A DNA stretch of 64,000 nucleotides from Nymphaea colorata. Lineage: Eukaryota; Streptophyta; Magnoliopsida; Nymphaeales; Nymphaeaceae. Below the pieces are notes generated by a model. That model ran no database searches. It was not told the origin of the DNA and worked only from the letters and a program-made list of their open reading frames with translations. A program made the position numbers and the translations under genes. The DNA lies in assembly GCF_008831285.2 (NCBI RefSeq), contig NC_045141.1, positions 11,272,106-11,336,105 on the forward strand. The letters are read 5' to 3'. Shown here one piece after another: positions 8,401 through 59,240 of the stretch (positions within the stretch are counted from its first letter, which is position 1; every line of letters begins with the position of its first letter).

Positions 8401-11400
8401 GTCAGAATACACTTCCTAATCCTTTCAAATCAATGAAATTTTTTATCTATTGTCTCTTCATTACGCTTAGTTAACTTGGGATTACCCCACATTTGTCCTT
8501 GAGTTTCATGCCCATTTGCAGCTCTTATGGGCCTTGTAAGTAACCAAGCCTCTACGTTGCTTCATTATATTTTTTTGCTGCAATTTTATATACATCATCA
8601 CAATCGAATCATCCAACTCAGCTTGTAAAATGGAAATAAACTAGAATGCTTAATGCTCCACTCACCCCCCAATGAACTTCTTTCTGATTCACCTGCTTAG
8701 CTATATCATTGCTACTGCCCATCAAACTTACCACATCAGCATCATCAGTAAAAGAACCTGGCTGTCCAGGGGAAACTGACAAAATATGAATTAGTATACT
8801 ACGTTACATCGTATAATTTTGAGAAGAAAAAGAAAGTGAATTATGAAGGCCTATAGATAAAGCAGTAGAAAAGCAGTAATCAAACATTAGGAGGACTTCT
8901 GAGTAAGTACCTCGGAAATTGATACGCTCATTTATTATTCCAAGCATTATCATTGACTCGGATTTCTGCAGGTATTGCAGTAGAAGATCATAGGAATACT
9001 GCAGGTTAAAATGTAAAGAGTGAGAGGAGTCAATAAAAACACAAAAGCAATTAGAAAGGTAAGTCAATCAACTTCTAGAACTGTACATGACACAACAGAT
9101 GCTTCAAGCTGCACATGCAAGCACAGATATATTCACAACCTAGTTCTGAAGCTATACATAGCACAAAGGGTCTGTACATGTGCATTGGTTGGTCATAACA
9201 TGTGGATACAGAATCGGAAATGTCAACCAGCATTATGTAGGGCATCTATAACACCATTTAGACAACTACATCAGGTTCAGTCTAATAGTTTGTATTGAAA
9301 ACTCATGCACTCATACAACTATGTTGCATATGTGAATGCACTCATTTCAGATGGTTTGAACTTTAAAGTTAACACAGTGCTAATTGACAGCATTCTTCCT
9401 GACATATATGTGCTCATGTGTACTTGTTTGTGGGGTATATGTGTGTGTGTGTGTGTGCGCGTGTGTGCAGGCCAGAAGGTTTAAAATCCAGAAGGGGATA
9501 AATTCATATATCACCAATCATCCTGATTCCAAGCATCAATTTTTCCCAAACTTGCCAAGAAAAGAAAGCAGTTAGAACAGGGAGTTGAGCCAAAGCATGG
9601 AAGCAAAGGCAATTGAAGGCACAGGCAAAATGACAAACTAAATTGCAAGCAACAAATTAATATTAACCTAAAATGCAATTAGTAATGTAGAATCAAAAAC
9701 AAGAAAGGAACACGATGTAACGTGAAAAACCCCTCAACAAGAGGGGAAAAACCACAGGTGAGGAGGACTGGTGCCCACTAGCAACCAGACTCTCTCTCTC
9801 TTAGAATATCATTCACACATCGAAAATTAGGGTTTACACAGGTTAAGTAGGGCCATAACAGTACCACACTGGATTGGGTCCAAATCCAGACCTGGATAGG
9901 TGACCCAAATAACATATGTCAACACTCCCCCTCAAATTGGACATACATATCAAACATGCCCAACTTGGATACATTTCTTTCAAACTGAGACACAGGTAAG
10001 GCTTTAGTCAGAACATCAGCAGTTTGGTCTTCATATTTCATATATGGTAGAATCAACTCTATGGCATCAATTCTCTCCCGGATGAAGTGACGGTCAATCT
10101 CGACATGCTTTGTTCGGTCATGTAACACAAGGTTGTTGGCCAGATTGATTGTGGACTTGTTATCACAGTACATCTTCATAGGTCCTTCCGTCTTTATCCC
10201 AATAACAGTCAGTAATACTTTCAGCCACAGTAATTTTGACACTCCAGTAGCAACAACCCTATATTCAGCATCTGCACTTGAGCGGGAACAAACATCTTGT
10301 CTCTTACTCCTCCAAACAACAAGATTTCCTTCCAAGTAGACGTAATACCCTGAAGTAGATCTTCTAGTATCAACATAGCCTGCCCAGTCTGCATCTGAAT
10401 ACCCTTCAATCTCAATCGGTCATTGTTTCACATATAGAAGCCCCTTGCCAGGATTCCTTTTCAAGTAACACAAGATTCTGTCGACAACCTTCAAATGAGT
10501 ATCTGTAAGTGTGTGCATGAACTGACTCATTACATTTACATCAAAGGTGATATCAAGTCTAGTCAGAGTGAGGTAGATCAATCTTCCAACCAAACGTTGA
10601 TACCTCTCCTTAGCTTCTTCACAAAGAGGTTCCCCATCCTTAATATTGAGTTTGTGTCCAACATCCGGAGGAGTAGAAGCCGGTCTACACCCTAATTTTC
10701 CTGTCTCCTTATATAAATCCAGGGTATACTTCCTTTGATTTAGCACAAGGGTCGTACCTGATCTCGCAATTTCAATACCAAGAAAATATCTTAGTTTGCC
10801 AAGGTCCTTGAGATCAAATTCAGCAGTCAGTAAACCCTTTAATCTTGTTATCTCGTCTTTCACCTGTAACAATCATATCATCAACATAGACTAACAAGAG
10901 AGTAACCTTACCTTCCTTACTCTTTACAAACAGAGTATGATCTCTGTTTCCTTGATTGTAGTCATGTTGTCTCATTACAAGTCTAAGACGTTCAAACTAT
11001 GCTTGGGGAGACTGCTTGAGCCCTACAAAGCCTTCTTCAATTTACAGCATTTTCTCGGTTTCTGATATCCTGGGGACATACACATATACACTTCTTCTTC
11101 AAGATCTCCATTGAGAAAAGCATTCTTAACGTCAAGTTCGCACATCTTCCACTCCTTCAACACTGCATGAGAAATAATAACTCTAACAGTCTTCATCTTC
11201 GCAACAGGAGAAAACGTCTCCAAATAGCCAATCTCATATTTCTAACTAAACCCCTTGGCAACCAGGCGAGCTTTGTACCTCTCAACATTCTCATCTGGTT
11301 TGTACTTAATGGTGTAGACTCACTTGGATCCAACCAGATGAGCTGCTTCAGGGATCTCTACCACTTCCCTTATCCGGTTTCTGCTCAAGGCTTCCATCTC

Positions 11401-14400
11401 TTCTTGCATAGCATGAATCCACTTGGGGTCACTCTGAGCCTCTGTAACAGTCCTGAGAATCACAGCCAAAGAGAGAGATGATACAAAACATTTGTAATCC
11501 GTACTCAGTCTAGAATATGACACAAAGTTACCATTAGGGTGTTGGGTACAAGACCTGACACTCTTTCTCAGGGCAATGGGAAGCTCCTCATTTTCAGATT
11601 TTGTCTGAACGGTTTCTGTTTGAATGTCTTCCTCAACAGTGGATTTTTGCTGGGACCTCCATCATGAAAAGAAGAATAGTCGAAGGAAACCTTCCAGTGA
11701 GAAGAAATCTACTGCGGATGCTACCAACTCTAGTAGAGGGAAAGCCTCTATCTCAGCTGAACAGATTTGTGAGCTTCGTGCTTATCTAAATCAGATTGAT
11801 GTTGGCCAGGCCGAAGTGTCAAATGATGTGAAGGTTAACCATGCTCTGGCCATTTCTAGTGAAAAAGGTAATTCTTGTATGGAAGAATGGATCGTTGACA
11901 GTGGTGCTACCCATCAATGACTGACAATCCTAAGTTTTTTCATGAGTATAAGCTATCTTCTGGAAAGGAACGTGTTTTTCTTGTCGATGGTTCATTTACC
12001 TCTATGGCAGGAAAAGAGTCTTTCTTTGTTAAAAAAATTTTTAGTGTATGGTGCCTTACCTGTTCCTCATCTTCCCTTGAATATGTTATCTGTCAGCAAG
12101 ATTACTAAGGAGTTGAACTGTGAACTCATATTCTTTGCAAATCGTTGTGTTTTGCAGGACTTGGTGACAGGGAAGAGGATTGGGATTGGTTTGGTGTCTA
12201 AAGGCTTATATCGACTTCCCATCTGTGTGGCCAATGCTCTTATGACAGCAGTTAGCAGGACCGAGACGAAGAGAGAATATTGTCTTCAGTTATTTTTGTA
12301 TTGGCATGAACAACTTGGACATCTCCCTTTTGGAGTTTTGAAACAGTTATTTCCTGAGTTATGTTCTAGTTTGGACATATCTATGATATCTTGTGATGTA
12401 TGTCAGTTTGCTAAACATGTTAGGGCTTCATACCCTGTTTCCAACAGTCGTGCTAATGAAGTTTTTTCCTTGATCCATTCTGATGTGTGGGGTCCTTCGG
12501 GCTTCGGGAATTCATACCCGTTGTGGTTTTCAGTATTTTATAACATTTATAGATGATTACTCACGGACTACCTTTGTTTACCTGTTGAAACATCGTAGTG
12601 AAGTGTCTCATGTCATAGAGACCTTCATTCTTCTTGTAGGGAACCAATATGGTGGTTCTGTTAAGACATTTCGGTTTGATAACGCTCATGAGTATGTGTG
12701 TCATGCTGTTGAGGATTTTCTTCGAAAAAAGAGGATTGTTTATGAGACATCTTATAGTTATACCCCTCCTCAAAATGGGGTCACTGAAAGGAAAAATTGT
12801 CAGTTGCTTAATGTCACCAGAGCCCTCTTGTTTCAAAGGAATCTTCCTAAACATTATTGGGGAGAGGCTGTTCTTACCAGTGCATACTTGATTAACCGCA
12901 TGTCTAGTCGTGTGTTGAATGGGCGGACTCTCCACTCTATGCTTCCAGGGGATCGTTAACCCTTTCACCTTCCCCCTCGTGTCTTTGGGTGTGTTTGCTT
13001 CATTCATGATCACAACCCTAATGTTAGAAAACTTGATCCAAGGTCAATCAAAGGAATATTTGTTGGGTATCCTCCTACTCAAAAAGGGTATAAATGTCTT
13101 GATCCTACCACTGGTTGTGTTTAGGTTACCAAGGATGTCACATTCTTGGAACATGTCTCTTATTTCGGCGAGAATCCTCTTCAGGGGGAGAAGTCTATAT
13201 CAGGGGAAGAGTATTCTCTGAGTCAAGAAATTCAGTTTACAGATTTCTTGGAGTACAAGCGGGAAGAGAGTCCACCGATTGTTGAGGTGCTTGAACATGA
13301 GAGGAATGAAGGGTGTTCCACTGGGACGGAAGAGAAGTGTAATCGCTTGTTTGGGCAGGTGTACTCTAGGTGAAGAGTTCGTACAGATAAGGTGACTGAT
13401 GGTGAGAATTCTACTCCTAATCCCAATCCTACTTCTTCCTTGGATGACCCAAGTCGTGCTCAGAAGAAACATGTTCAATAATATGTAGTCTGTCAGAATT
13501 AAGGATTTGACTCCTTATACCTTCAAAGTCATCATTCAACCCTACTAAAAATAGGAATACCATATTCTCCCATTCTTTGGCTAAATAACGCACTTGATCT
13601 TGAGGACAATTCCAAGTGTCCTCAGAGTAGTAGTCAAGTTCTATCCACTTAGATTTCAAGGCAGCATAGAAATCTACTACAGAGTGTTCACCTTGCCGAA
13701 GAGAATAGGCATCTTTCATCAACTAATACACCCGAACAACTTTCTTCTTTTGGCCATCATCTGCTCAAGTACAACCCACATATCCCTCGCAGTCCTCTTG
13801 CGAAGAATAAGAGGTTGAATCTCGGGGGACACAGAGTTGACAATCCAAGTCTTAACTTGGTTGCAGTGAGTGCACTTGCGAGGAGGTTGGGCAGCTCCTA
13901 CAGGACCACGGCTAAGGGCAGACCTCTCATTATACGAGATGTGATCCCCCTTTTTTCTAGTAATAACAAGGCGTCGTTGCTCTTCAGCCTCTACACGAGA
14001 GTAAACCTCTTCAATAGTAGGTAGTCTGTCAGAATTAAGGATTTGATTTTGACTCCTTATACCTTCAAAGTCATCATTCAACCCTGCTAAAAATAGAAAT
14101 ACCCTATTCTCCCATTCTTTGGCTAAATAACGCACTTGATCTTGAGGATAATCCCAAGTGTCATCAAGTAGTAGTCAAGTTCTATCCACTTAGATTTCAA
14201 GGCAGCATAAAAATCTGCCACAGAGTGTTCACCTTGCCGAAGAGAATAGGCATCCTTCATCAACTGATACACCCGAACAACTTTCTTCTTTTGGCCATAC
14301 ATCTGCTCAAGTATAACCCACATATCCCTCGCAGTCCTCTTGCGAAGAATAAGAGATTGAATCTCGGGGGACATAGAGTTGACAATCCAAGTCTTAACTT

Positions 14401-17400
14401 GGTTGCAGTGAATGCACTTACGAGGAGGTCGGGCAGCTCCTACAGGACCATGGCTAACGGCAGACCTCTCATTACACGAGATGTGATCCCCCTTTTTTTC
14501 AGTAATAACAAGGTGTCGTTGCTCTTCAGCCTCTACACGAGAGTAAACCTCTTCAATACTAGGTAGTCTGTCAGAATTAAGGATTTGAATCCTTATACCT
14601 TCAAAGTCATCATTCAACCCTGCTAAAAATAGGAATACCCTATTCCCATTCTTTGGCTAAATAACACACTTGATCTTGAGGACAATCCCAAGTGTCATCA
14701 GAGTAGTAGTCAAGTTCCTCCCACTTAGATTTCAAGGCAGCATAGAAATTGCTACAGAGTGTTCACCTTGTCGAAGAGAATAGACATCCTTCATCAACTG
14801 ATACACCCGAACAACTTTCTTCTTTTGGCCATACATCTGCTCAAGTATAACCCACATATCCCTCGCAGTCCTCTTGCGAAGGATAAGAGGTTCAATCTCG
14901 GGGGATACAGAGTTGACAATCCCAGTCTTAACTTGGTTGTCCTCAAAAAAACATGTGTCCCAAGCAACATTAGTTTCAGTGGGTTCAACTTTCCTTCCGT
15001 TAACATACGCAATTCAGCCCCGACCAGCAATCCCCTTTGTGATTGTTGCAGACCATTGAAGGTAATTTTCCTTGGTGAGGCGAATTGTAGTGACTTGAAT
15101 TGGAATATTCTTAGTTTTAGATGCCTCAGCATCAGCCTGGTACGTATTGACTATAGAAGAAGAAGAATCTGCCATGATCAGATTCAATACTGCAACAAGC
15201 GGCAAGGCGGCGGCGAGTGAATGGCTGATGTAGTCGCACAAGCAAGGACAGGAAGAAGAATCGGCAGACTGAGCAAGGAGCACGGTGGAGCAGGGAGCAC
15301 GACGGAGCAAGGGGGGGATAGCCGAGGCTCAGGCATCGGTGCCGTGCTCAAGGGACGACGGCAGCAGACAGACAGATAGAGCTCAGGAGACGGCAAATGG
15401 GAGGCGATCAACTGACACTAGCGACGGTAGAAGTATAGCGATAGGCCCCATGCACGACAGGAGAAGGCAGCATGATAGGGGCGCCAGAACTCCACGGCAG
15501 CAACTCAACCGTTGAACAAGGAGCGCAGAACCAATGGCGACCCTTGGGCGATGCGCATAGCAGTGGACTCCGTCGGGCAAACTTCGCCGGAACTCAGGGC
15601 AACGACACCAGAAGACCATGGAGGCGAGCAGTGGGAACAGTGGAGAGCGTCGGGCAAGGGTGGCTTCGAGCGAGAAGTGGGAAGCAGTGGAGAGCGTCGG
15701 TCGTCGGGCGAGGGTGGCTTCAAGCGAGCAGTGGGAAGCCAGAAGATCACAGAGAGTGGAGTCGGGCGATGCATGCAGTGGGACGCCGAAACTTCAAGGC
15801 GGCGGCAGAAACCAGGCAATAGGGAATCGTTCACCCAAACACTGTCGAGGGATTTTCGGTCCAAACTGAATAGTAATTGCAGAACCAACCGGCTCTGATA
15901 CCATGTAGAATCAAAAACAAGAAAGGAACACGATGTAACATGGAATACCCCTCAACAAGAGGGAAAAAACTACGAATGAGGAGGACTGATGCCCACTAGC
16001 AACCAAATTCTCTCTCTCTCTCTCTTAGAATATCATTCACAAACCGAAAATTAGGGTTTACACAGGTTAAGTAGGGCCATAACAGTACCACACTGGATCG
16101 GGTCCCGATCCAGACCCGGATAGGTGACCCAAATACAACATATGTCAACAAGTAACAACTGAATGAGAAACAGAACTTGAATCCAATTATGAAAGTGGAA
16201 TGAGCTGGTAAGGGAAAAAAAAAACTATCCTATCCTTTATAGAGCGAAAAATATAAGTTTGTAATGCTACTATCGAGTATCAAGATATGGAAACCCAAAA
16301 AACTTTATAATCTTATACTCTAAAATGTAAAACTGAACAACATAAAATGTGACTTTTGTTTGGGCTGCTATGTGAATACTTTGTTAAGCCTGCCACACCT
16401 GTCATACCCAGTCGCAACAACAATATACTAGCTACCTCACAATTGGCTACTTAAACATTAAAGCTTTGGGCTGAAAGGTGTCTACTGTTTACTAAACCTT
16501 TTCATTGGGCAAAATGGGGACAGCTATAATTTATGCTGCATTCAAATTGGGCTCAAGTATTTGACCAATAGTCTGTAAGTTGTATTTCACATTTTTATAA
16601 TTTAATTATTAATATATAATTGCTATAGAAACCTTTGGAAACACTTAACGTATTTACCTACTGCATACATGTTTTCAACTTTTTATATACACATACACCA
16701 CTACAAATAACATCCATATAATTATAACTACTGTTTGTAACTAGGGATGTTACCAGGGCTTGAGTCAGCATTCTTCTAACTTAAACACCACTAATCAGCT
16801 ACATATGGTAGCAGCCTTGCAGGACCCAGATGTAGTCAAGCAATTAATAGATATTCCTTAAAATATCAGGTGATTCTTTCTGGTAACAAATACCAAAAAA
16901 AACTGTTGGCACATGTATAATGGTAAAACCTCAAATACATCCAAGCATACATATTTATTACGAAAGTGACTATAGTATACACCACATATACAAAGTAGTT
17001 CTCCATTTCTCCACTTTTGAAACCAAAAATTAAAAAAAAAAAAAAAAAAAAAAAAAGCCTTCAGTTCTGCTTGTGTTGTTCACCTAAAGAGTCAACAGAG
17101 GAGAATAGAGGAAAGGCTTGTGAAGGTCGCCCTTTAGATAATTAAGAAGCTTGATTCCATGTTAACAAACTAGACCATGATCACAAACAAAGGATGAAAG
17201 TTTCCCTGTCAATACTAAATTGTCAGAATGTACCCTGGTTACACAATAGCAACTAAGATACACACCTGACAAATACGTATATTGACTTTGTTATGCCGCA
17301 ACGAACGAGCAAATTCATTTTCCTGCAAAAAATGGTCTTAAGGCTCTGTCCTTGATCATGCGCTCAATATTCCAATAGATAAAAAATGTGTCATAAGGAG

Positions 17401-25259: not shown

Positions 25260-28200
25260 TGTGCAGGCAAGAGCAAATTTGAATCATTCTATGGTTTCAT
25301 CCAATGGTTTAGAACTTCATTTCCTTTGGAAAAGAGAGAAAAATGCATTTTCAAACTAGACAGGTGTATGATAAATCAAGGGTGGAGAGATCAGCAAGGC
25401 CTTAATAGTTGGTGCAATGTTCTGCCACGAAATAGTTCTAAACACAATGCTATCACTTTTTCATCTTTCTTTAGCTAACAAGGTTGCAAATTTCAATCTT
25501 CCTTCAAATACTATTCCTTTTGGTGTAAAAAGGAGGAATATCATCAAATCGTCACCATGATATGAAACAGACCTTTCAAAGGATGCCCACTAATCAGAGT
25601 TATCTCTAAACTTGAAGCAGCAAAGCATGAACCAACTAGATGAAATAGATTGTATGTGGGAAATTTTAGTAGAGATTTCTTCTCTCTGGTGAGCATTAGT
25701 GGACCTCCAATCCAAGGATGGCAATCGAGATCAAGGGGATGAAGATTTATATTATATTTTGTGTAAAGAACTTGAAGAAGCAATAAATGAGGAAGAGCCG
25801 TTGTGGTGTATCAAATCTAGAATGAACTGAATTGTTTCTGGAGACAAAAATACAAAATATTTTTAACTTATTGTAAAAGGACGAAGATCTAAAAGCCTTT
25901 ATTGCAGAACTGGAACATGATTGTCACACCTTTTCCAATCAGTCAAAAATTACGCATCTTTGCGATTTTTTTTAATTGATCTCTTAGGCAAAGAAGAAGA
26001 TTTAGGATATGCATTGCAATGACAGAGATCGATGGGCCAACTATAAAGAAAACTGAAAATCAAGAGTTGCTCTGTCAATTGACTGTGGAGGAACTTAAAA
26101 GAAGTATCTTCAACATTAAGGGTGAGAGGCTCTAGGACTTGATGAGTTCACTAGATGCTTCTTTCAACAACACTAGCATATTCTTGAAAACTATATACTT
26201 GTTATTGTTAACAATTTCATGACAGCTGGTCACCTTGTTAGAAAGATTAATAGAACAGTGATCGTTCTCTTCCCTAAAGGAGATATGGTTAAAAACAATT
26301 CAGGCCTATTAGCAATGCCTTTTACAAAATCATTTCCAAACTCCTTGCAGAATGCATGAAGAGATGCCTTGACAGAGTCAATAGCGAAGAGCAGGCTGCC
26401 TTCTTACCCAATAGAAATTTGGCAAATAATGTTAGTATGGCCCATGAACAGATTCACTCCATGGAAAAATTGAACAAGGGCTCTCTTTGCATAAAAATTG
26501 ATGTTTGGAAGTGTATAATAGAGTGAACTGGATGTTTTCACAAGAGGTACTTCTTAAGTTGGGTTTTTCTCATGAATGGGTTAAGCATCTTATGCTTTGT
26601 GTTTTCTTTATATCATTTGTTGTTCAAGTCAATGGCAAAGCCAGAGATTTTCATTTTGTAAGGAAAGGATTAAGACAGGGAGACCCACTGTCTTCATGTT
26701 TGTTTGTGGTTCTCATGGAAATGTTGTCCAAATATGTGAAATTTAAAGTTTCCAATACTCTACTAGGAGTTCCTAGCAATTACAACTTGGGAAAATTTTC
26801 TGCTCTACTTTGTTTCATCGACAACCTCCTTATATTTTGTGAGGTTGAAAGGAACTCTATAGCATCTCTTTTTTTTTTTTGTTGAGATAAGAGATAGATC
26901 ACATATGGAAATCAATCTAGTTAAAACTAAGATCATCCCATTTAATGTTGGCCTTAAATGAGATAATTGGGACAACAAAGTGGGGTATTTCTAAATTGCA
27001 TATTAGATATTTAGGTTTGTATTTATCTAAGGGCAATCTAAGCACAGATTGGTGTAATGATCGTTTATTTAAAGCATTGTCACAAAAAATGTGTACGAGT
27101 ATTATAAGACAAGGAATTTTTTGGGTATAATACGGTAAAGTTGTATACTTGGAAATAAAATGAAAATATCTCCATAATTTAAAAAAAAATTAAAACATTT
27201 AATAAATCCTAAAATTTATAAAAATAAAAAACACAAAAAAATGCATATAATACGGGTATAATACACATTTTTTCATATTTTTTATTTTTTAGCGTTTTTC
27301 TTAAAGATGCATTTTTTCACGTTTAATACGACTGACTCTGTTTTGGCGTATTATACGTGTCTTTTTTCCAATACGACGTCTTTTTTGTGACAGTGATTTT
27401 TGTGACGTCTTTTTTGACGTGAGACTTTTAAGATTCTTGGAGACATATTGTGAAGAATCAGCTCAGCTATGCCTAAATTCTTATGGGGAGGGGGTTGAAC
27501 AAAAACATAAAATTCCTTTGATAGGGTGGAACACCATATTCCCCCCTTCTTTGGAGGGAGATGCTAATATCCTCAACTTGCATAAGATGAATAGAAGTTG
27601 CCTAGATCTTTGTGCTCTTAAAGGTGATCAAATTTCAATCTTTGTATGCTACTATGATCAAGCGAAAATATCTTCACTTTCATAGCTTACGGACTAGGAA
27701 AGGAAGTACTCCTGGTGGTTTAAAGGAATGAAATGGGGTTAGAAAGCTGGGGCTGGAAAGCCATAGACAATATGTTAAACTTGAGCATTGGTAAAGGACC
27801 TATTAAATTTTGGTAGGACAAATGGTCTATAGTTCGCTTATATTCTATGATGACAAAAAAGGAAACCTTAGAATTGGGGGAATCTCTCCATTTTTAGTCA
27901 AAGAGATGCTTAACTCTTACTGTATTCTTTCTCAAGAGTTCAAACACTTATTTGCTAAGAACAATATAAAGAGACTGATGCTAAAGGAGGAGGAAGACCA
28001 ACTGTTGTTCAATAGCATGCCTATAGCAAAGTTAAAAATTTGGTTACATTTAGTCATTCATAAGAAATTTCCCCATGAGGAGTGGAGAAAGCACATTTGG
28101 TTAAACGACTTCATTTTCATTGCATCTCTTAGTAGAGTCATTGCTCAGGACCAAGAATTGGTGTTACATATGTAAAGAACAAGAAGAACTTCGAGACCAC

Positions 28201-36689: not shown

Positions 36690-38003
36690 TCAAGCCGCAG
36701 TGGTGGGATTCTCCCCTTGCCACGACCACACGATGTCCTTGAGTTTGGGCCGCAGCTCGTTGCTGCAGAAGCGGTTGTAATCCAGGGTGTCGCCGCCGGA
36801 CTTCTTCATCTCTACCACCACGAACGACGGCGTCACCGCGAAGACCTCCGCCGATATCGCCAGCTGCTCCCTTCGACCGTTCTCCGGGCCCTGCATCTTC
36901 ACCCTCCTCTCGTTCTTCTTCACGCTGAACTTAACCTCCTTGGCCACCTCCTCCAGCTTGGACAGCACGTTGCTCGCCGACTCCTTGGCGGTGAACCTCA
37001 GCTCCTCCCTGGCCTTCATCTTCTCGTCGAACAGGGGCGACAGGTCGAACCCTTGAGACAATGAAATTATATGGAATGCGTTCAGGGATTCCATGCGGCA
37101 GTCGTCGTCGTCCTGTTCGAAATCGTCGGCTTTCTTCCGCGCCGAGGGGATCGGCGGCAGAGCCGCTGGCTTCTTAAACCAGGTGTTCTCCATGAGCTTG
37201 GCCGTGGTGATTCTGGTATTCGGGTTAGGATCGAGAAGCTTCAGAATTAGGCGCCGGGCGTCCGAGGAGAACCATGGCGGGCACTTGAAGTCTCCCTTGT
37301 AGATTTTCCGGTACATGGCCATGATGTTGTCATCCTGAAACGGGAGGAATCCGGCCAACAGAACGTAGAGGATGACCCCGCACGACCAGAGATCGGCCTT
37401 GGCGCCATCGTAGCCGCGCTTCGCCAGCACCTCCGGCGCGACGTACGCCGGCGTGCCGCAAGTGGTGTGCAGTAGCCCGTCGGGTTGCATGTGTTCCGAA
37501 AGGGCGCTGAGGCCAAAATCCGTGACCTTGAGGTTGCCGTCCTCGTCGAGGAGGAGGTTCTCCGGCTTCAGGTCGCGGTGGTAGACGCCACGGCTATGGC
37601 AGAAATCGATGGCGGAAATGAGTTGCTGGAAGTAGGCGCGGGCAGCGTCCTCCTTCAGACGGCCTTTGGCCACCTTAGAGAACAGCTCCCCGCCCTTGAC
37701 GTACTCCATGGCGAAGTAGATCTTCGTCTTCGTCGCCATCACCTCGTGGAGTTCGACGATGTTGGGGTGCTTCACCATCTTCATCACGGAGATCTCTCTC
37801 TTGATCTGCTCCATCATCCCCACCTTCAAGACCTTCTCCTTCCCCACCACCTTGATTGCAACGCTCTTCCCGGTCACTACGTTCCGCGCATGGTAAACCT
37901 TCGCGAACGTTCCGTGACCGAGCAGCCGCCCGAGCTCATACTTCCCGTCCAGAGCCGGGCTCTTCTTCCCTTCTTTGCCGGAGCAGTTCTTCTCCATCTC
38001 CAA
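36690..38003 (-). CDS. CIPK6: CBL-interacting protein kinase (SnRK3 family), CIPK6-like, intronless
   Basis: A 437-residue Ser/Thr kinase activated by calcineurin B-like calcium sensors, acting in calcium signalling for ion transport and stress. The kinase domain is at about 22-277. It has a glycine loop LGHGTFAKV (28-36), ATP-binding Lys51, HRDLKPEN (142-149), DFG (162-164), and an activation loop up to APE (189-191). The regulatory part has the CBL-binding NAF/FISL motif NAFHIISL (308-315) and a PP2C-interaction (PPI) region at about 337-372. All key residues are present and the length is normal for the family. The gene has no intron, as in the intronless CIPK clade. The opening [17 protein letters not shown] and [15 protein letters not shown] resemble CIPK6 most, by memory. 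It is much richer in G and C than its surroundings. The first ATG of the frame (38003) is used. CIPK number is less sure than family. Confidence 0.93.
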
Positions 38004-38408
38004 CTTATATCACCGATTAAAAAAACCGATCGACGGAGAAAGAGACCAGAAATATGAAAACAGAGAGAAAATACAGAGAGAGTGAGAGAGAAAGAAAGAA
38101 AGGAGATGACTGCGAGGGATGTGAAAGGGCCGTGACGTCCGCCGTGGTTCCAGTAGACTAACCGTCCTCAACGTGTTTCCGGTGACACGTCCGGCTATGA
38201 TTCTTCCTCTTGGGCCGGAATCCGGCGGCGTCAGGGGTGAAGCGCAGGTTCAACCCCATCTCTCTGCATTCCCCAAAACCAGACCTGAGAAGGAGGATGA
38301 CCCCTTCTTTTTCTTCTCTTCTCTCTCTATCTATCTCTCCCTATATGTCACCCACCACTCGCTACTCTGCAAGACCCTCTGAGAGAGGAATTCGTGCGTC
38401 CTTATATA
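38004..38408 (-). promoter_or_regulatory. CIPK 5' leader and core promoter
   Basis: A TATATAA box is readable on the minus strand at 38402-38408, about 400 bp upstream of the ATG. That would place transcription start near 38370 and leave a leader of roughly 370 bp. A GA-rich purine stretch (about 38035-38106 on the plus strand) lies in the leader. Confidence 0.5.
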
Positions 38409-40200: not shown

Positions 40201-42332
40201 CGTCCCGGAGTTCCGGCCTCACGGATGAAGCTGAACCGTTCAAATTTATTTGAGTGTGCTAATTAAATTAAATATCTGATGTCATTCTTACCTGATACTG
40301 CAGGTATTGGTGTCCGTGCCGTATCTGTTTGCTCATTAGTACGCATTGTCGGCAGTATGAGGTGTCATGTATCGGCGCATATGACTTTTCTTTTTTTATT
40401 TTTAAACGTTAAAAACAATTTTTAAAAAAATACAAGTTAAAAATACAAGCTTGCATTGGCCTCGTATGGTGTACATAATATACATGGGTTCACATGAGAA
40501 ACAGTATCAACGACATTGATTTCATTTGAGTTTATTCTTAACGCTCGTAGATCGGTGATTTGAATTTTATGATTCAAACAGCATTTTTCGATGATTTTCT
40601 TTTACTCTAGTAAGTCTGATTTTTCTGGATTCACCAAAAAACTGGCCAAAATCCACCGGAACCCATCTGTCGGCTGTTTGAGTTCAAAGAGGAAGCCTGC
40701 TGGGATACTCATTGCTTTTATCATTCTTTTTCTCGATGGGAATCCACATTGTGTAACTAAGCTCTCAATGCTAAAGCAAAGCATGACACTTAAAGGTAAA
40801 GGGTACATCACTATTGTTATTGGTGCTGATGCAGCAATACTTTTGCTCACCCAAAAAGAAAAAAAACATTAATTTTGCATGTAATTTTTTTTAAAAATAT
40901 TTATTTAACTTATATAAAAAAAATTTAAAATCATATTTCAACCCTTTTAAATTATTAAAACAATAATTCAACTCTCTTAATAAAAAATTTATAACTCTAC
41001 CTATAACTCGAACGAAACTTGTTCCGAGTTTGGCACCCTCTTGATATACAAAAAGCTACCAGTAGTTCGCCTTCCCATTATAACGCCAGACCTTTCCGGT
41101 GGAGGCTCACCTGCCTTCCCTTCCCGCTCCCGAATAATTCAAGCCCCTTCAGGCCCCACCGCCCTCTCATATTTTACCGCTTCTCTTTCTTTCCGTTCTT
41201 TCTTTCTGCACAATAGAACAGCGAAACTGATGAAACTCATCGGGTTGGGCCCCATGGCTACTCGGTTCGGGTCCTAACAAGGGTCTGACAGCTAATAGGG
41301 CTTCGGTAGAACCACAGTGCTGTTGCCTCTTTTGGGATCGTCAATGTTGTGAATCGGGCCGATCTGGCGAATCCAATTATTTTATGGAATCGGGTCGAAC
41401 CAGATCCGGAAAGGGCCCTCGTATCAGATCTGGTTCCATTGTAGCCACACAGTGGGTATGTTCTTCGTTAGGTTAGGCCGCACTGTCCTGGCAAGGCTGC
41501 AGTGACGCAGTACCTCACATCATTTATCTCTGTCTCTCAATGAGAGTGGGACAAGGACAACCTGTCTTTATTTGATATACCATTTGCTCATACAGTATTT
41601 TGGAGTGTACTCCATGTTCACTTTTTTGAGGCCCATAGTTTTCTCCCCTTATTGGTTGTGTAGGACGTTATCATTTGCAAAGTTACCGTGCCATTATAAT
41701 ATGTAAATTATTCTTATTGTTATATATATTTCTTGAGTTTTAGCTGCATGGATGTGATCTTTTACAAGTAGAAATAGAGACATCCGATAAAATTGGAACT
41801 ATTTACTTTTAAATTGGTCCGATTTGAATGAGTAAATAAAGTTTATAGATGATTGAAAGCCCCGAGGACTAAAAACTTTTGAATTTTCATGAATTATGGA
41901 ATACTTGTACCATAACTTCTAGCTTGTTCGACTTAAGATTCGTCACATGTATTGTTAAAATGGGTTTTCGTGGTTGATATGGATAAGATTTTGTAGCACA
42001 GGAAATTTCACCTTAGATGGTCGATGAACCCGCCATTCCCATTAGCTCTGTCTTACACATCGGACCAACTGCATTTGAGAGTGCATTTCTAGGTTTCATA
42101 GTAAACAAAAATTCACATTCTACCAGTTAGAAAATAAAATAAACTTAAAAATTTGATTTCCAAAATATAAAAATGGATGATATAATCATATAATAACAAA
42201 ATAAATAATAGTAACAACATCGCTAAAAGGACTTGCCAGACGAAAGGTAAGCCAAGCGCTACAAAAAAAAAAAAAAAAAGCAGAAAGAATGGAATGAAAG
42301 ATTTTCATTTCTGCTTAATGCGTACAAAGTGT
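40201..42332. other. Intergenic, no gene recognised
   Basis: AT-rich sequence with a GC-richer interval at about 41010-41530 that has no recognised coding motif. A run of A lies near 42262-42280. Confidence 0.4.
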
Positions 42333-42700
42333 CAAGGTCACAGTGTCCTACGTGATGATGGCTCTTGCACACACAGAGGGGTGGAGTCATAAAATTTTCA
42401 TGAGGGGGTCGAATTAAAGTTTCTAAACTTTGACACAAAATAAAATATCATTTTTCAAAATTTTTATATAAGATAAGTAAAATTTTCTAAAATTAACATG
42501 TAAATTTTTTTAAATTATCAAGGTTACAGTCTCCTACGTGATGATGGCTCTTGCAGACACACAGGGGTGGAGTCATAAATTTTTCATGAGGGGGTCGAAT
42601 TAAAGTTTCTAAACTTTGACACAAGATAAAATATCATTTTTCAAAATTTTTATAAAAGATAAGTAAAAATTTCTAAAATTAACGTGTAATTTTTTAAATT
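42333..42700. repeat. Tandem duplication, unit 186 bp, of a dispersed hAT-like sequence
   Basis: The phrase TACGTGATGATGGCTCTTGCA occurs in both units. Unit starts are at 42333 and 42519, and the copies match closely to about 42700. Each unit contains GGGGTGGAGTCATAAA, FATTTTTCATGAGGGGG-type sequence and a TAAAGTTTCTAAACTTTGAC stretch. The last part recurs as a diverged single copy at 44935-45070. Confidence 0.75.
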
Positions 42701-43824
<1,124 letters not shown>

Positions 43825-44934: not shown

Positions 44935-45300
44935 GAAATTTTTCATGAAGGGGGCCGAATTAAAGTTTCTAAATTACGGTATGAGCCAAAATATTATTTT
45001 TCAAAGTTTTTATATAAAATAAGTAAAATTTTCTAAAATTTACATGTAAATTATTTTTGTTTTTTGAGGGGACACCCACCCTTGGCTCCACCCGTGGTTT
45101 CGTAAATTCCTATTCACAATGATGTGACTGGAGCTCAGAAGCAGAGCTAGGGGAAGTAGAGGCTCTGACCAAAAATTTAAAAATTTACAAGCAAATTTTA
45201 CGAAACTTTATTTATGCTATATAAAAATTTTAAAGATTCATGTTTCTGTTGTTAAAATTTTGAAACTACAATTCCTATAATTCCGCCCCCTTATTAAAAA
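44935..45300. repeat. Dispersed hAT-like repeat fragments
   Basis: 44935-45070 is a diverged copy of the 42333 unit. It is followed by GGCTCCACCC at about 45080-45090, resembling the hAT 3' end motif at 32923. The adjoining 45135-45300 has the inverse type of start (CAGAGCTAGGGG) and ends in CCGCCCCC plus a run of A. Confidence 0.45.
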
Positions 45301-51072: not shown

Positions 51073-52173
51073 GTAGTTGCAGAGACAATTTTTTTTTTGG
51101 CTAGGGAGCACTATCTTGACAATTTTCATTCCTTAAAGGGGATGACTATATAAAATTAGCAAATGTTTGAAGTATGATAAACAGAAATTATAGGACTAGT
51201 GTGCCTACACCACTATCTAATCAATATGTGGCTCCGCCAATGCACATGGCTGCCCGACCACCTATGGTAAGCCCTAGAGGCAAAAATATTTCATGCTCAA
51301 AATGTAAACGATGCTTTTGGACGTCACTCTAAAACGATGTTCTGGTGTTAAAATACTGTTTTGCCTCTAAAATACTACTTAACAGCCAAAAACTTCTGGT
51401 TAAGGGGCACTGTAAGTGTAAATTTCAAACTTGAAGGGCACTCATATGTAAAAAAATTAAAATTAATGAGGTATCTATATATAAATAATATAAAGGTCTG
51501 GTGTGGGCAATTGCCCACGGCTACTGTTAACATGTGTTCTGGTGACAGTTGAAACTGGGTCTGGGAGAAATCCAAGTTTGAGGAAATGGTGCTTTCAAAA
51601 GGACAAAATATTTTACCCCAGGTTTTCACAAAAATGTTGTTTATGGGATGAATACACAAATCAAGTTTCGAAAACTGATTAAAAGTAGTAAGTTTCAATA
51701 AAACCTCATTTTTATAAAACGACTCTTTTTTTTTTTTGGGTTAAGGTGTCATCCAAATGCCACCTAAATTTTAGGTAGAATCATATGTTATTAATTGAAA
51801 GAGGGAAGAAGAAAGACATCTATTATAAAGTACGACCTACATATAACTAAAAATTGTGATGTATATTGGTTTCTAATTAGGTTTTCGAATGACGACACTT
51901 TGAGCATATAGTTGATCTACAACCATAAAATATAAGACTTTCAGTTAAGTGGGTGAGGCATCGATTACATATTTCTATGAATGAAACGGGAGCCATTTTT
52001 GCCGAAGTACTCAAAACATTGCATAAAAATAGCAATTTTGGCACAAACATTGGAGAACCTACAGTGATGAATAAAACAAAATTACTTTTTGTTATTGTTG
52101 TTTTGTTTTTAGAACTGGCAGATTAAAGTCAAGGAATCAAAGATAGTGACAAACTGGTTTATAATAGCCTTTT
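51073..52173. other. Intergenic, no gene recognised
   Basis: Nothing recognised. Confidence 0.35.
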
Positions 52174-52256
52174 TGGTAAACCATTAATCTGCGCATGTCA
52201 TCCTTGTGCAGGGGCCATGCTAATCTTCTCTGTATCATTCCAATTTTATCGGATGT
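52174..52256 (-). ncRNA. U6 snRNA copy, 5'-truncated (likely pseudogene)
   Basis: On the minus strand the sequence follows U6 from the ACATCCGATAAAATTGGAA segment through ATACAGAGAAGATTAGCATG, GCCCCTGC and AAGGATGACA to a diverged 3' end. The functional ACAGAGA box and the AGC triad region are readable. The first dozen bases of U6 (5' stem-loop) are missing, the GCGCAAATCG region is altered to GCGCAGATTA, and no terminal T run follows. No plant USE/TATA promoter was seen upstream. Active U6 normally splices pre-mRNA. This copy is probably inactive. Confidence 0.88.
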
Positions 52257-52537
52257 GGCTTAATTATTGGTTGCATATCTTTTCGGCCGAAACACTAATC
52301 TATGCATTTCGTGCAAACGTTAGGAACCAATTTACAAAAAAACATGCAAAGCGCAAAGTATTTTGCAAAAACAGTCCAATTTCCAGAAGTAACCAAAGTT
52401 GGTCACCTGCCAAACATCTTTCCGGCAAGGCTTATGTCCTCACCGTCAACTGGTTTTTGTCCAACCACCTTCAAAGCAGATAGTTCGCCTCACCATTACA
52501 AGTGTCCCATAGTCGTTGCCCATTACAAATAAAATTT

Positions 52538-55960: not shown

Positions 55961-57626
55961 AGTGGAATTTAGGAGACATATTTATATAAGCAAGTTTTCA
56001 TCAAGTAATAGCCACCCATGTGGGTATTATTATGGGAAAAAATTATGTGTATTTACCATTTTTATGTAAATGATTTTTAATTAAATCACATTTTACAAAA
56101 ATAATTTGATAACTGCAACGTATACTAATACCCTCCCAATTCAAGACGAACTATTTAGATGTCTACAACTTATTGCAAAATGTTAATGATTCTCAAAATA
56201 AACCACATAACAATCCTCCATAGTGGTTCTTAATAATTAAGCTATGCATTAATATTTTTCTATATTGGTTAGCTTAAATTGCTTAAAACTTGCCCTTACT
56301 TATACTACATCCAAACAATGCCTAATCTATGTAGTGCTACATCTAAATGATCTTTAGTTGGACTTGTCTTCTATCTACAAATTATATTTGTTGAATGAAC
56401 AAATGCCATGGCATTGCAAAGTACTATTGCATACATTAGAGAATAAACATATGATTTTTTTTTTATTTACACCATTCAATTTGATTTATGGGACATTGAT
56501 TTGTGAATTCATAGAATTGAGTTAGGATGTCAAGAGCAATTGGTTGCACATTGAGTTTTTATTATCATTTTTAATTGAATTTGAGATATAATGTTCGTCT
56601 CAAAAAATTGATATTTATCGATGTTGATTTATTTCTTGAAGGTTCATAGGTTTTGAGCTAGCTGGTTGACTGTCTAGGATTGTTGGATTATATATGTTTT
56701 TTTAGTATGGCTGTTAAAAAGGCTCACATGGATTAGGAGACTTTCAGATCTATTTTTTTCTATCATAGTTGACTACTACTTGTTAGAAGCATATACATTT
56801 TTGTTGCTCGATTTACTTTCTTTACTTTCTTCCTCCTTTACTTTTTTCCTTACGTCATCTTAACATTAACTATATTAATGTTTTTTTGGAAAGTTTGCAG
56901 TTTGGATTTTTGAAATTCATTAACTAGTCATGTGAACTTTGCCATGACTTATTTGTGGAAAACTATATTGAGCTTTACATCTTAAGCATGTTTTTCTATG
57001 CTGAGTTTGTCGTATCTAGAATTAAAGCAACATTTTACAAAAGACTACCTGCTTTGCTAAAAATGTGAATTTATCTTCTTTAGAAAATAGTGTCAATATT
57101 TTCCTTCTGAATGATTATTTATAAACTATTATGACAATGGTCATTTTAGGTTCAATAATGCATGCTTTTGATATGGGATATTAAATTAAAAGTGAAAGTA
57201 GATGCTTGATTGCTGCTTTCGTAATCTTATCTTACGATTCTTCACTAAAATAGTGCCAAAGTAGAGATGACAATTTTTTCTATTTTAAGGGGAAGCTTTT
57301 CATCATTGGTCAAGACTATTGCGCATAAAGAATGCAATCAATCAATTGATCAACTTATTCTACTTGATGTTTCATATGACTGATTCCTTGTTCAAGTATT
57401 GGAGATCATGGTCTATTGTTAGATAAAGAATGTGATTTTTGATGGCAAGACAATCAATCCATCGAAAGGAATCACTCTTTGCCCTCTCAATCATGTGCAT
57501 ATGGTTTTGGTACTAGCATTCCTCCATCACTTTACATGAGACACTGTTTTATCTAGTTTTTTTGCCATTCTATTCATCTTTGCTACAAAAACTTTGAATC
57601 AAGAAAAGTAGTAAGACATCAATCTA
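55961..57626. other. Intergenic, no gene recognised
   Basis: Strongly AT-rich. Nothing recognised. Confidence 0.4.
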
Positions 57627-57634
57627 TAACTGTT
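57627..57634. other. Target-site duplication TAACTGTT, left copy
   Basis: Identical to 58413-58420 on the other side of the GC-rich element. An 8-bp duplication is diagnostic of the hAT superfamily. Confidence 0.85.
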
Positions 57635-58412
57635 TAGGCTTGGGCGTCGGGCCAGCCCGGTTGGGCCCGGGCCCGATAACCCGGCCTGATAACCAAACCG
57701 GGCGGGAAGGGCGGCCCGGCTGCGGCCCGCCCGGCCCGACTCCTGCCCTCGGGCGGTCGGGCAGCCTCCGCCCTCCGCTCGCTCCCTTGACCCCTCCCTC
57801 TCTCTTCCCGTCTCCCTCTCCCTCTCCCTCTGCTGCCTCTCCTTCTCCCTTCCGTCTCCCTCTCCCTCTGCTCCCTCTCCTTTCCGTCTCCCTCTCCCTC
57901 TGCTCCCTCTCCCTTCCGTCTCCCTCTCCCTCTCTGCTCCCTCTCCCTTTTCCCTCTCCCTTTCCGCCTGGCCCGCTCGCTCCCCTCCCTCTCCCTCTCC
58001 CTCTCCCTCTCTGAGTCCGTCCCGTCTCCCTCTCCCTCTCCCTCTCCGCCTCCGTCCCCCGCAGCCCCGCTCGCTCCCCTCCCTCTCCCCCTCCGTCCCC
58101 CGCAGCCCCGCTCGCTCCCCTCCCTCTCCCCCTCCGTCCCTCGCAGCCCCGCTCGCTCCCCTCCCTCTCTGCCTCCGTCCCCCGCAGCCCCACTCCGCCT
58201 CCGTCCCCCGCGGCCCGCAGCTCGCTCCTCTCCCTCTCCACCTCCATTCCCCCGCAGCCCCCGCGCCCAGCTCTGTCTCCCTCTCCGCTCGGCTGCCCCT
58301 TCCCGTGTCTCCCTCTTCGCGGTGGGCCGAGCCGGGCCTGACTTTTGGTGGCCAGGCCCGGTACCCGGCCCGGCAAGATTATCGGGCCGGCCCGGCCCGA
58401 TGCCCACCCCTA
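57635..58412. mobile_element. GC-rich hAT-type MITE (778 bp) with CT-rich minisatellite core
   Basis: The ends are inverted repeats: TAGGCTTGGGCGTCGGGCC on the left, and on the right, in complement, TAGGGGTGGGCATCGGGCC. They continue inward as GCCCG-rich sequence that includes CCCGATAA on both sides. The core (about 57780-58310) is a minisatellite of CCCTCTCCCTCTG and CCCCGCAGCCCCGCTCGCTCCCC-type units. A perfect 8-bp duplication (TAACTGTT) flanks it. The long frames on both strands (up to 265 codons, Arg/Glu/Gly or Pro/Leu/Ser only) are products of base composition, not genes. Confidence 0.88.
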
Positions 58413-58420
58413 TAACTGTT
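58413..58420. other. Target-site duplication TAACTGTT, right copy
   Basis: Matches 57627-57634. Confidence 0.85.
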
Positions 58421-59240
58421 GTAAGTGGCATGACAATCTATGCAGTTACCAGTGTATTCTGTGATGGATTGTGCATCTTTGTCCATCTTGGGGATAATGC
58501 AAGTGCCCTTGTAGATGGGCCAACTAAAGGTAACTGAGATTCAACATGGTTTTGGCTATTGACAGTGAAAAGGCCACATTTTAAGTAATGAGATGGCTTG
58601 CATGTGAACAATGGAAATACCTCGCAAGTTAATACCTTTTGAATCCAAAGATTGAAGAAGTCCCCTGTCCTTGCCAAAATTATTTTTTTCCTTCAAATAA
58701 TCTGAGAGTGTCATTGGGAGTATACTTATTTGTTTGAGAACATTGCATACACTAGGTTCAAAAAGGGGACCAAGCTATATACAACTGACCACGTGAATGG
58801 GCTAATTTATTTTAATCAACTACAACAACTACCAAGCTATTCACATGATTAAATTTAAGATAGCTTAGTCTTTTTGATTCAGGGTACTCACATGCACTCT
58901 AACATAACGTGGCCTGTTTGTCTAATAAAGCTCATAGTGCAGACTAGAAGTTGCTTTTGAAGGTTCAACTTGGGCTGGTGGTCACAACACAAAATCTCTC
59001 TCTCTCTCTCTCTTAATATGATTTTGATATTTCTTTGGGGAAAACAAACTCTTAATGTTTTCCCTTTTTTGTCGCAGAACATTATTGTGGTGTTTTGGGA
59101 CCTAGAAACTAGATTTGTTTTACTAGGATTGACAACCACTTCCTCCTGATAAAGCGAGAGAAGACGTTCTACTTCTTTTCAAGCCTTATGACCCTTAGAA
59201 AGGAGTACAATATTTTGACATATATTTGTAATATATCTTA
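58421..59240. other. Intergenic, no gene recognised
   Basis: Short CT run at about 58994-59012. Nothing else recognised. Confidence 0.4.

Follow-up and report, generated by a model that had tools for sequence, protein, structure and literature searches.

Rearranged retroelements are on record from plants, fungi and retroviruses. At maize CEN10, microhomology-mediated repair has been held responsible for many partial, deleted and chimeric retrotransposons (PMC4806543, excerpt). Internal inversions were found in 6 of 575 HIV-1 proviruses, and how they formed is not stated in the excerpt of PMC11219899. Autointegration products are described in the excerpts of PMC4751563 and PMC9694575 as circles in which an LTR end is joined to an internal site, and an inverted circle may be among them (PMC4751563, excerpt). 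Among the titles and abstract openings listed in literature searches, none describes an LTR retrotransposon with an inverted internal block, although full texts may hold one. Here we describe a Copia element of Nymphaea colorata whose protease-integrase block is inverted within the element. It lies in a window (the whole stretch analysed, 64,000 nucleotides) at C4:11272106-11336105 of a 407.8-Mb assembly.

Structure of the element

The Copia element spans window positions 9686-16150 on the minus strand and is bordered on both outer sides by the same five letters, AGTAA (9681-9685 and 16151-16155). Its two LTRs with a target duplication, the primer binding site (PBS) and polypurine tract (PPT) next to the LTRs, and its Retrotran_gag_2, gag_pre-integrs, rve and RVT_2 domains are those of a Ty1/copia element. 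Read in the coding direction, it consists of the 5' LTR (15904-16150), the adjoining PBS (15891-15903, TGGTATCAGAGCC), which we take to match the initiator tRNA, a leader (15179-15890) with partial matches to other copies (73% to L010, and 79% over 75 bp to L015), the 5' part of gag (14940-15178, 72-87% identical to other copies), three tandem gag units, the inverted protease-integrase block, the reverse transcriptase (RT)-RNase H region, the PPT (9925-9933, GAGGGGGAG on the minus strand) adjoining the LTR, and the 3' LTR (9686-9924, 90% identical to the 5' LTR). The RT-RNase H region (9934-11639, minus strand) is colinear with L010 and L016. The 1.84-kb block (11636-13475) reads on the plus strand and carries the remaining gag zinc knuckle, protease and integrase.

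Pfam searches placed gag_pre-integrs (8.8e-10, piece 11921-12556), the rve integrase core (8.9e-10, 12474-12959) and SH3_retrovirus (1.4e-20, 12960-13124) on the plus strand, and Retrotran_gag_2 (5e-10, 14123-14656) and RVT_2 (4e-7, 10420-10872; 30.3 bits, just under the curated cut-off of 31.6) on the minus strand. No Pfam family was found in the protease piece (11624-11920), the RNase H piece (9919-10419) or the piece 11320-11661; the latter two were assigned by alignment to other copies, and the first is presumably the protease, judging from its position and a DSGAT-type motif. The initial annotation had read gag, RT, LTRs, PBS and PPT on the minus strand and protease and integrase on the plus strand, and the strands of the Pfam domains together with the placement of LTRs, PBS and PPT bear this out; its view that the element inserted as one unit holds up, as does that of a block inverted within the element. 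The open-frame lists show gag, block and RT all to be interrupted, so that no part of the element looks functional.

Several other features were observed in the window. Another Copia element belonging to this group, 78% identical to the one at 9686-16150, lies on the plus strand at 1-2130 and is cut off by the window start. An RVT_1 reverse transcriptase fragment (26502-26885, plus strand) is probably a LINE remnant. A 439-aa open frame on the minus strand (36690-38009) encodes a protein kinase domain and a NAF domain, the pairing known from CBL-interacting kinases (CIPKs). Further along are a 184-bp tandem duplication (42326-42714) with a more distant partial third copy 2.4 kb away (44949-45074), a full-length U6 spliceosomal RNA gene (52167-52274, minus strand, 73 bits), and a low-complexity region (57600-58540) with long open frames in several frames on both strands.

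Domain order in other copies of the genome

The gag unit, the block and the RT were compared with 57 loci, several of which overlap, corresponding by coordinates to 42 distinct places; matches of at most 68% or at most 60 bp were dropped from the comparison of order. At all 40 other places that hold both, the gag unit and the block are on one strand, the order at 20 places being read from 3.5-kb loci that cover gag and block but in most cases stop short of RT, and the inverted order occurs at 0 of the 40. Block and RT share a strand at 15 places. The gag unit, block and RT follow one another on one strand at 14 places other than our own, L012 holds block and RT only, on one strand, and in L013 RT shares its strand with 43 bp from the end of the block. 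Judged by position, other elements account for the RT matches that precede gag in L014 and L026 and for those on the opposite strand (68-70%) in L061. Identity between the block and its counterparts in the other copies compared is 84-94%, apart from a 69% match in L014 that comes from a different element; such a level reflects homology and not chance. The order gag-protease-integrase-RT on one strand is thus lacking in the element at 9686-16150 owing to the inversion.

Two further observations concern the family at large. Six copies (L003-L008) are 84-95% identical to the element in the gag core and 57-87% identical between one another in the leader and 5' gag, and the 5' end of this Copia group may have evolved in a modular manner. 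Two loci 1.1 Mb apart, L056 (C7:191300-197391) and L059 (C7:1291600-1297646), have exact 120-base words in common and may represent a segmental duplication that contains a single family member. When viral contigs were scanned with the integrase piece, no relative was found, and none of 9 pattern matches was confirmed.

Breakpoints, shared bases and missing gag

The initial annotation had put the breakpoints near 11640/11641 and 13469/13470; alignment to other copies refines them to 11636-11639 on the left and 13467-13475 on the right. At the left junction, RT-side matches to other copies stop at 11638-11639 and matches on the gag/protease side start at 11636-11638, thus defining a 4-bp exact microhomology, ACAG. 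In most other copies the zinc knuckle reads ...GGTCATACAGTGGATTTTTG... and the integrase/RT linker ...AAACCTGTTGAGGAAG..., or nearly so. At the right junction, matches on the integrase side mostly stop at position 46 of the query and those on the gag side mostly start at 38, giving an imperfect 9-bp microhomology. The coding strand of the window reads AACATGTTT here, compared with AAGAGGTTT in the element's own gag units 1 and 2, AAGATGTTT in the gag of L010 and L014, and AACAGGTTT at the integrase end of L009-L011 (reverse complement). Own units 1 and 2 agree with that integrase end at 8 of the 9 positions. One later change or an L010-like gag base would explain the mixed letters. The exact microhomology at this junction can only be given as 2-6 bp, since the observed letters call for either a subsequent base change or an ancestral gag with another base there, such as L010 and L014 have. 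In 20,000 trials of random joins within the element, a 4-bp match was reached in 2% and a 6-bp match in 0.24%.

Next to the right breakpoint, gag sequence is missing between the end of unit 3 and the start of the block: 166 bp by 4 of the 6 measurable copies (L009, L010, L011 and L015), in agreement with the approximately 165 bp suggested in the initial annotation, 162 bp by L014, and 135 bp by L016, which has a deletion of its own. The loss is up to 9 bp larger if the shared bases of the right junction are given to integrase. On the other side, the end of the block overlaps the start of RT by 4-5 bp in L009-L013; the two meet without a gap in L016, and 15 bp separate them in L015. The fit of about 5 bp at the integrase/RT breakpoint, together with the loss of about 166 bp from gag, shows that the block was flipped in place.

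Both junctions are confined to this locus in the searches that were run. Among the best 40 of 641 candidates for a 301-bp query across the left junction, its own place alone spans the junction, and the other matches start at query position 137-139 (gag/protease side) or stop at 139-140 (RT side). Similarly, among the best 40 of 350 candidates for a 96-bp query across the right junction, only its own place spans, the others stopping at 46 (one at 55) on the integrase side or starting at 38 (one at 34, one at 45) on the gag side. A 40-bp pattern across the left junction has a single genomic hit when as many as 3 mismatches are allowed (control 0); since about 3 of the 40 bp could be altered in a sister copy at LTR-like divergence, the pattern alone would miss some such copies. 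The 301-bp and 96-bp DNA searches tolerate more divergence than this, and a much more diverged sister could still escape them. The idea in the initial annotation that the inverted form was mobile thus gains no support, and nothing found suggests that this form moved. A mobile inverted subfamily was rejected as a candidate, as no second place with the left, right or tandem junction turned up in these searches.

Triplication of gag and the order of events

The gag core is triplicated in tandem at 13467-14939, a feature that the initial annotation had not reported. All three units are on the minus strand. Unit 1 (U1, 14406-14939) measures 534 bp, unit 2 (U2, 13864-14405) 542 bp, and unit 3 (U3, 13467-13863), which is cut short by the inversion, about 397 bp. 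The junction between tandem units occurs twice genome-wide, both times within this element (control 0), and among 42 matches to unit 2 (best 40 of 542 candidates) adjacent units were seen here alone. In a tree of 32 rows, U1-U3 form one clade (96/72, the 72 being SH-aLRT) with a stem of 0.0018, within which U2 and U3 group together (99/93) on a stem of 0.011, i.e., on changes that they share and that are absent from U1.

U1 and U2 are complete and retain the part of the unit lost from U3, which was cut by the inversion; therefore at least one duplication predates the inversion. As the changes common to U2 and U3 are missing from U1, some time also passed between the two duplications, which would be simplest if both were chromosomal. 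Divergences (K) were 0.071±0.018 for the LTR pair, 0.053±0.010 for U1-U2, 0.057±0.013 for U1-U3 and 0.043±0.011 for U2-U3. These point estimates would favour events after insertion, with a difference that is not significant (z = 1.34 for the LTRs vs U2-U3; Fisher tests, p 0.29-0.87). They hold for the unit edges given above; with edges shifted by 8-9 bp, K becomes 0.061 (U1-U2), 0.077 (U1-U3, above the LTR value) and 0.049 (U2-U3).

Origin of the inverted block

We consider it likely that gag was duplicated after insertion and that microhomology-mediated end joining later sealed two breaks with the segment between them turned round. The element, now decayed, would have inserted in the usual way and been rearranged later in the chromosome. 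The gag core would first have been duplicated in tandem, probably twice. A break in the integrase/RT linker and a second one where the last gag unit ends, with loss of about 166 bp, would then have freed the 1.84-kb protease-integrase segment, and microhomology-mediated end joining would have rejoined it the wrong way round. What is seen directly is an inversion in place, a deletion, a microhomology on the left and an imperfect match on the right; that the events followed insertion, and by which repair pathway, we infer. Bases shared by the joined ends (4 bp left; 9 bp, imperfect, right) and sequence loss at a break (about 166 bp of gag) are both as in microhomology-mediated end joining.

Template switching in reverse transcription can yield both tandem duplication and inversion, and the scrambling could have occurred before insertion. 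During the last reverse transcription, the RT would have switched template and strand twice, producing a cDNA with repeated gag and inverted protease-integrase that integrated with its ends intact. The perfect outer duplication and the intact LTRs, PBS and PPT fit any internal change, the divergences of gag units and LTRs overlap within error, and integrated retroviral copies do carry internal inversions, as the HIV-1 proviruses of PMC11219899 attest. But three events in one cDNA would leave the units equally diverged, whereas here the two duplications are separated by the changes shared in U2 and U3 and the inversion cuts the last unit. The point estimates of K also make U2-U3 younger than the LTRs, not significantly so. 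We regard an origin during reverse transcription as unlikely, with an appreciable chance nonetheless.

Misassembly is a concern in a repetitive family, in which the left-junction query alone has 641 candidates. Nevertheless the locus lies within a 27.7-Mb contig, and the shared junction bases and the loss of about 166 bp look biological. A mix-up between copies is made unlikely by their divergence, the best other scored copies being 95% identical on the gag/protease side of the left junction (best 40 of 641) and 96% identical over 46 bp on the integrase side of the right junction (best 40 of 350). Altogether we hold an assembly error to be very improbable.

Given how numerous the other copies are, a protease-integrase fragment from one of them could have been inserted backwards, with the element's own block lost. 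This would need a separate deletion of the own block whose end fits the RT start to 4-5 bp, as in L009-L013, and because the block end is nearly exact at the RT start, a block from another copy is not expected. Moreover, there is no LTR piece inside, and a second target duplication was not seen by eye. A foreign fragment is thus scarcely credible.

Of the two explanations offered in the initial annotation, inversion after insertion gives the best fit, with dating that is not significant, and autointegration, in which the cDNA attacked itself before insertion and which can yield inverted sequence, has a negligible chance, because the expected LTR-internal junction is absent at both inversion junctions, no LTR piece lies between the LTRs, and both LTRs occupy the outermost positions, flanked by a matching target duplication.

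Three further candidates were tried and rejected. A nested insertion is at odds with the lack of any LTR piece between the LTRs and of a second target duplication, which was sought by eye. Recombination between long inverted repeats fails because the junctions share 4 and 9 bp and no more. A mosaic of two subfamilies was considered on account of the 5' gag, which is 72-77% identical to most copies and 87% to L010; L003-L008, too, differ among themselves in leader and 5' gag (57-87%).

Comparison with known systems

Repair after insertion remains our preferred reading, and the element is most likely the product of an ordinary kind of repair accident in an old element, found in one copy. It is a clean case of a retrotransposon segment inverted in place: the two junctions and the ancestral order are resolved, and LTRs and gag units serve as an internal clock. 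It provides no evidence for a rearranged form that moves. Strand-based annotation may mistake such an element for nested insertions. We consider it rather doubtful that a plant Copia cDNA was scrambled in reverse transcription, with gag repeated and protease-integrase inverted by strand switching, and yet integrated normally; if true, this would be a plant counterpart of scrambled retroviral proviruses and would mean that integration needs no internal order.

The element resembles plant Ty1/copia LTR retrotransposons in its LTRs, 5-bp target duplication, PBS, PPT and gag, integrase and RT domains, and has orderly copies in the same genome; it differs from them in the inverted protease-integrase, the gag core present three times and the interrupted frames. 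Like the Ty1 and fungal autointegration products, which according to the excerpts of PMC4751563 and PMC9694575 may contain inverted element sequence, it holds an inverted part, but those are circles with LTR-internal junctions, which are absent here. The HIV-1 proviruses in the excerpt of PMC11219899 share with it an inverted internal part in an integrated element, although they are those of a retrovirus in recent infections. The rearrangements at maize CEN10 are alike in that partial, chimeric and deleted retrotransposons are ascribed to double-strand break repair, often with microhomology, whereas the inversions discussed in the excerpt of PMC4806543 are chromosomal and not inside one element.
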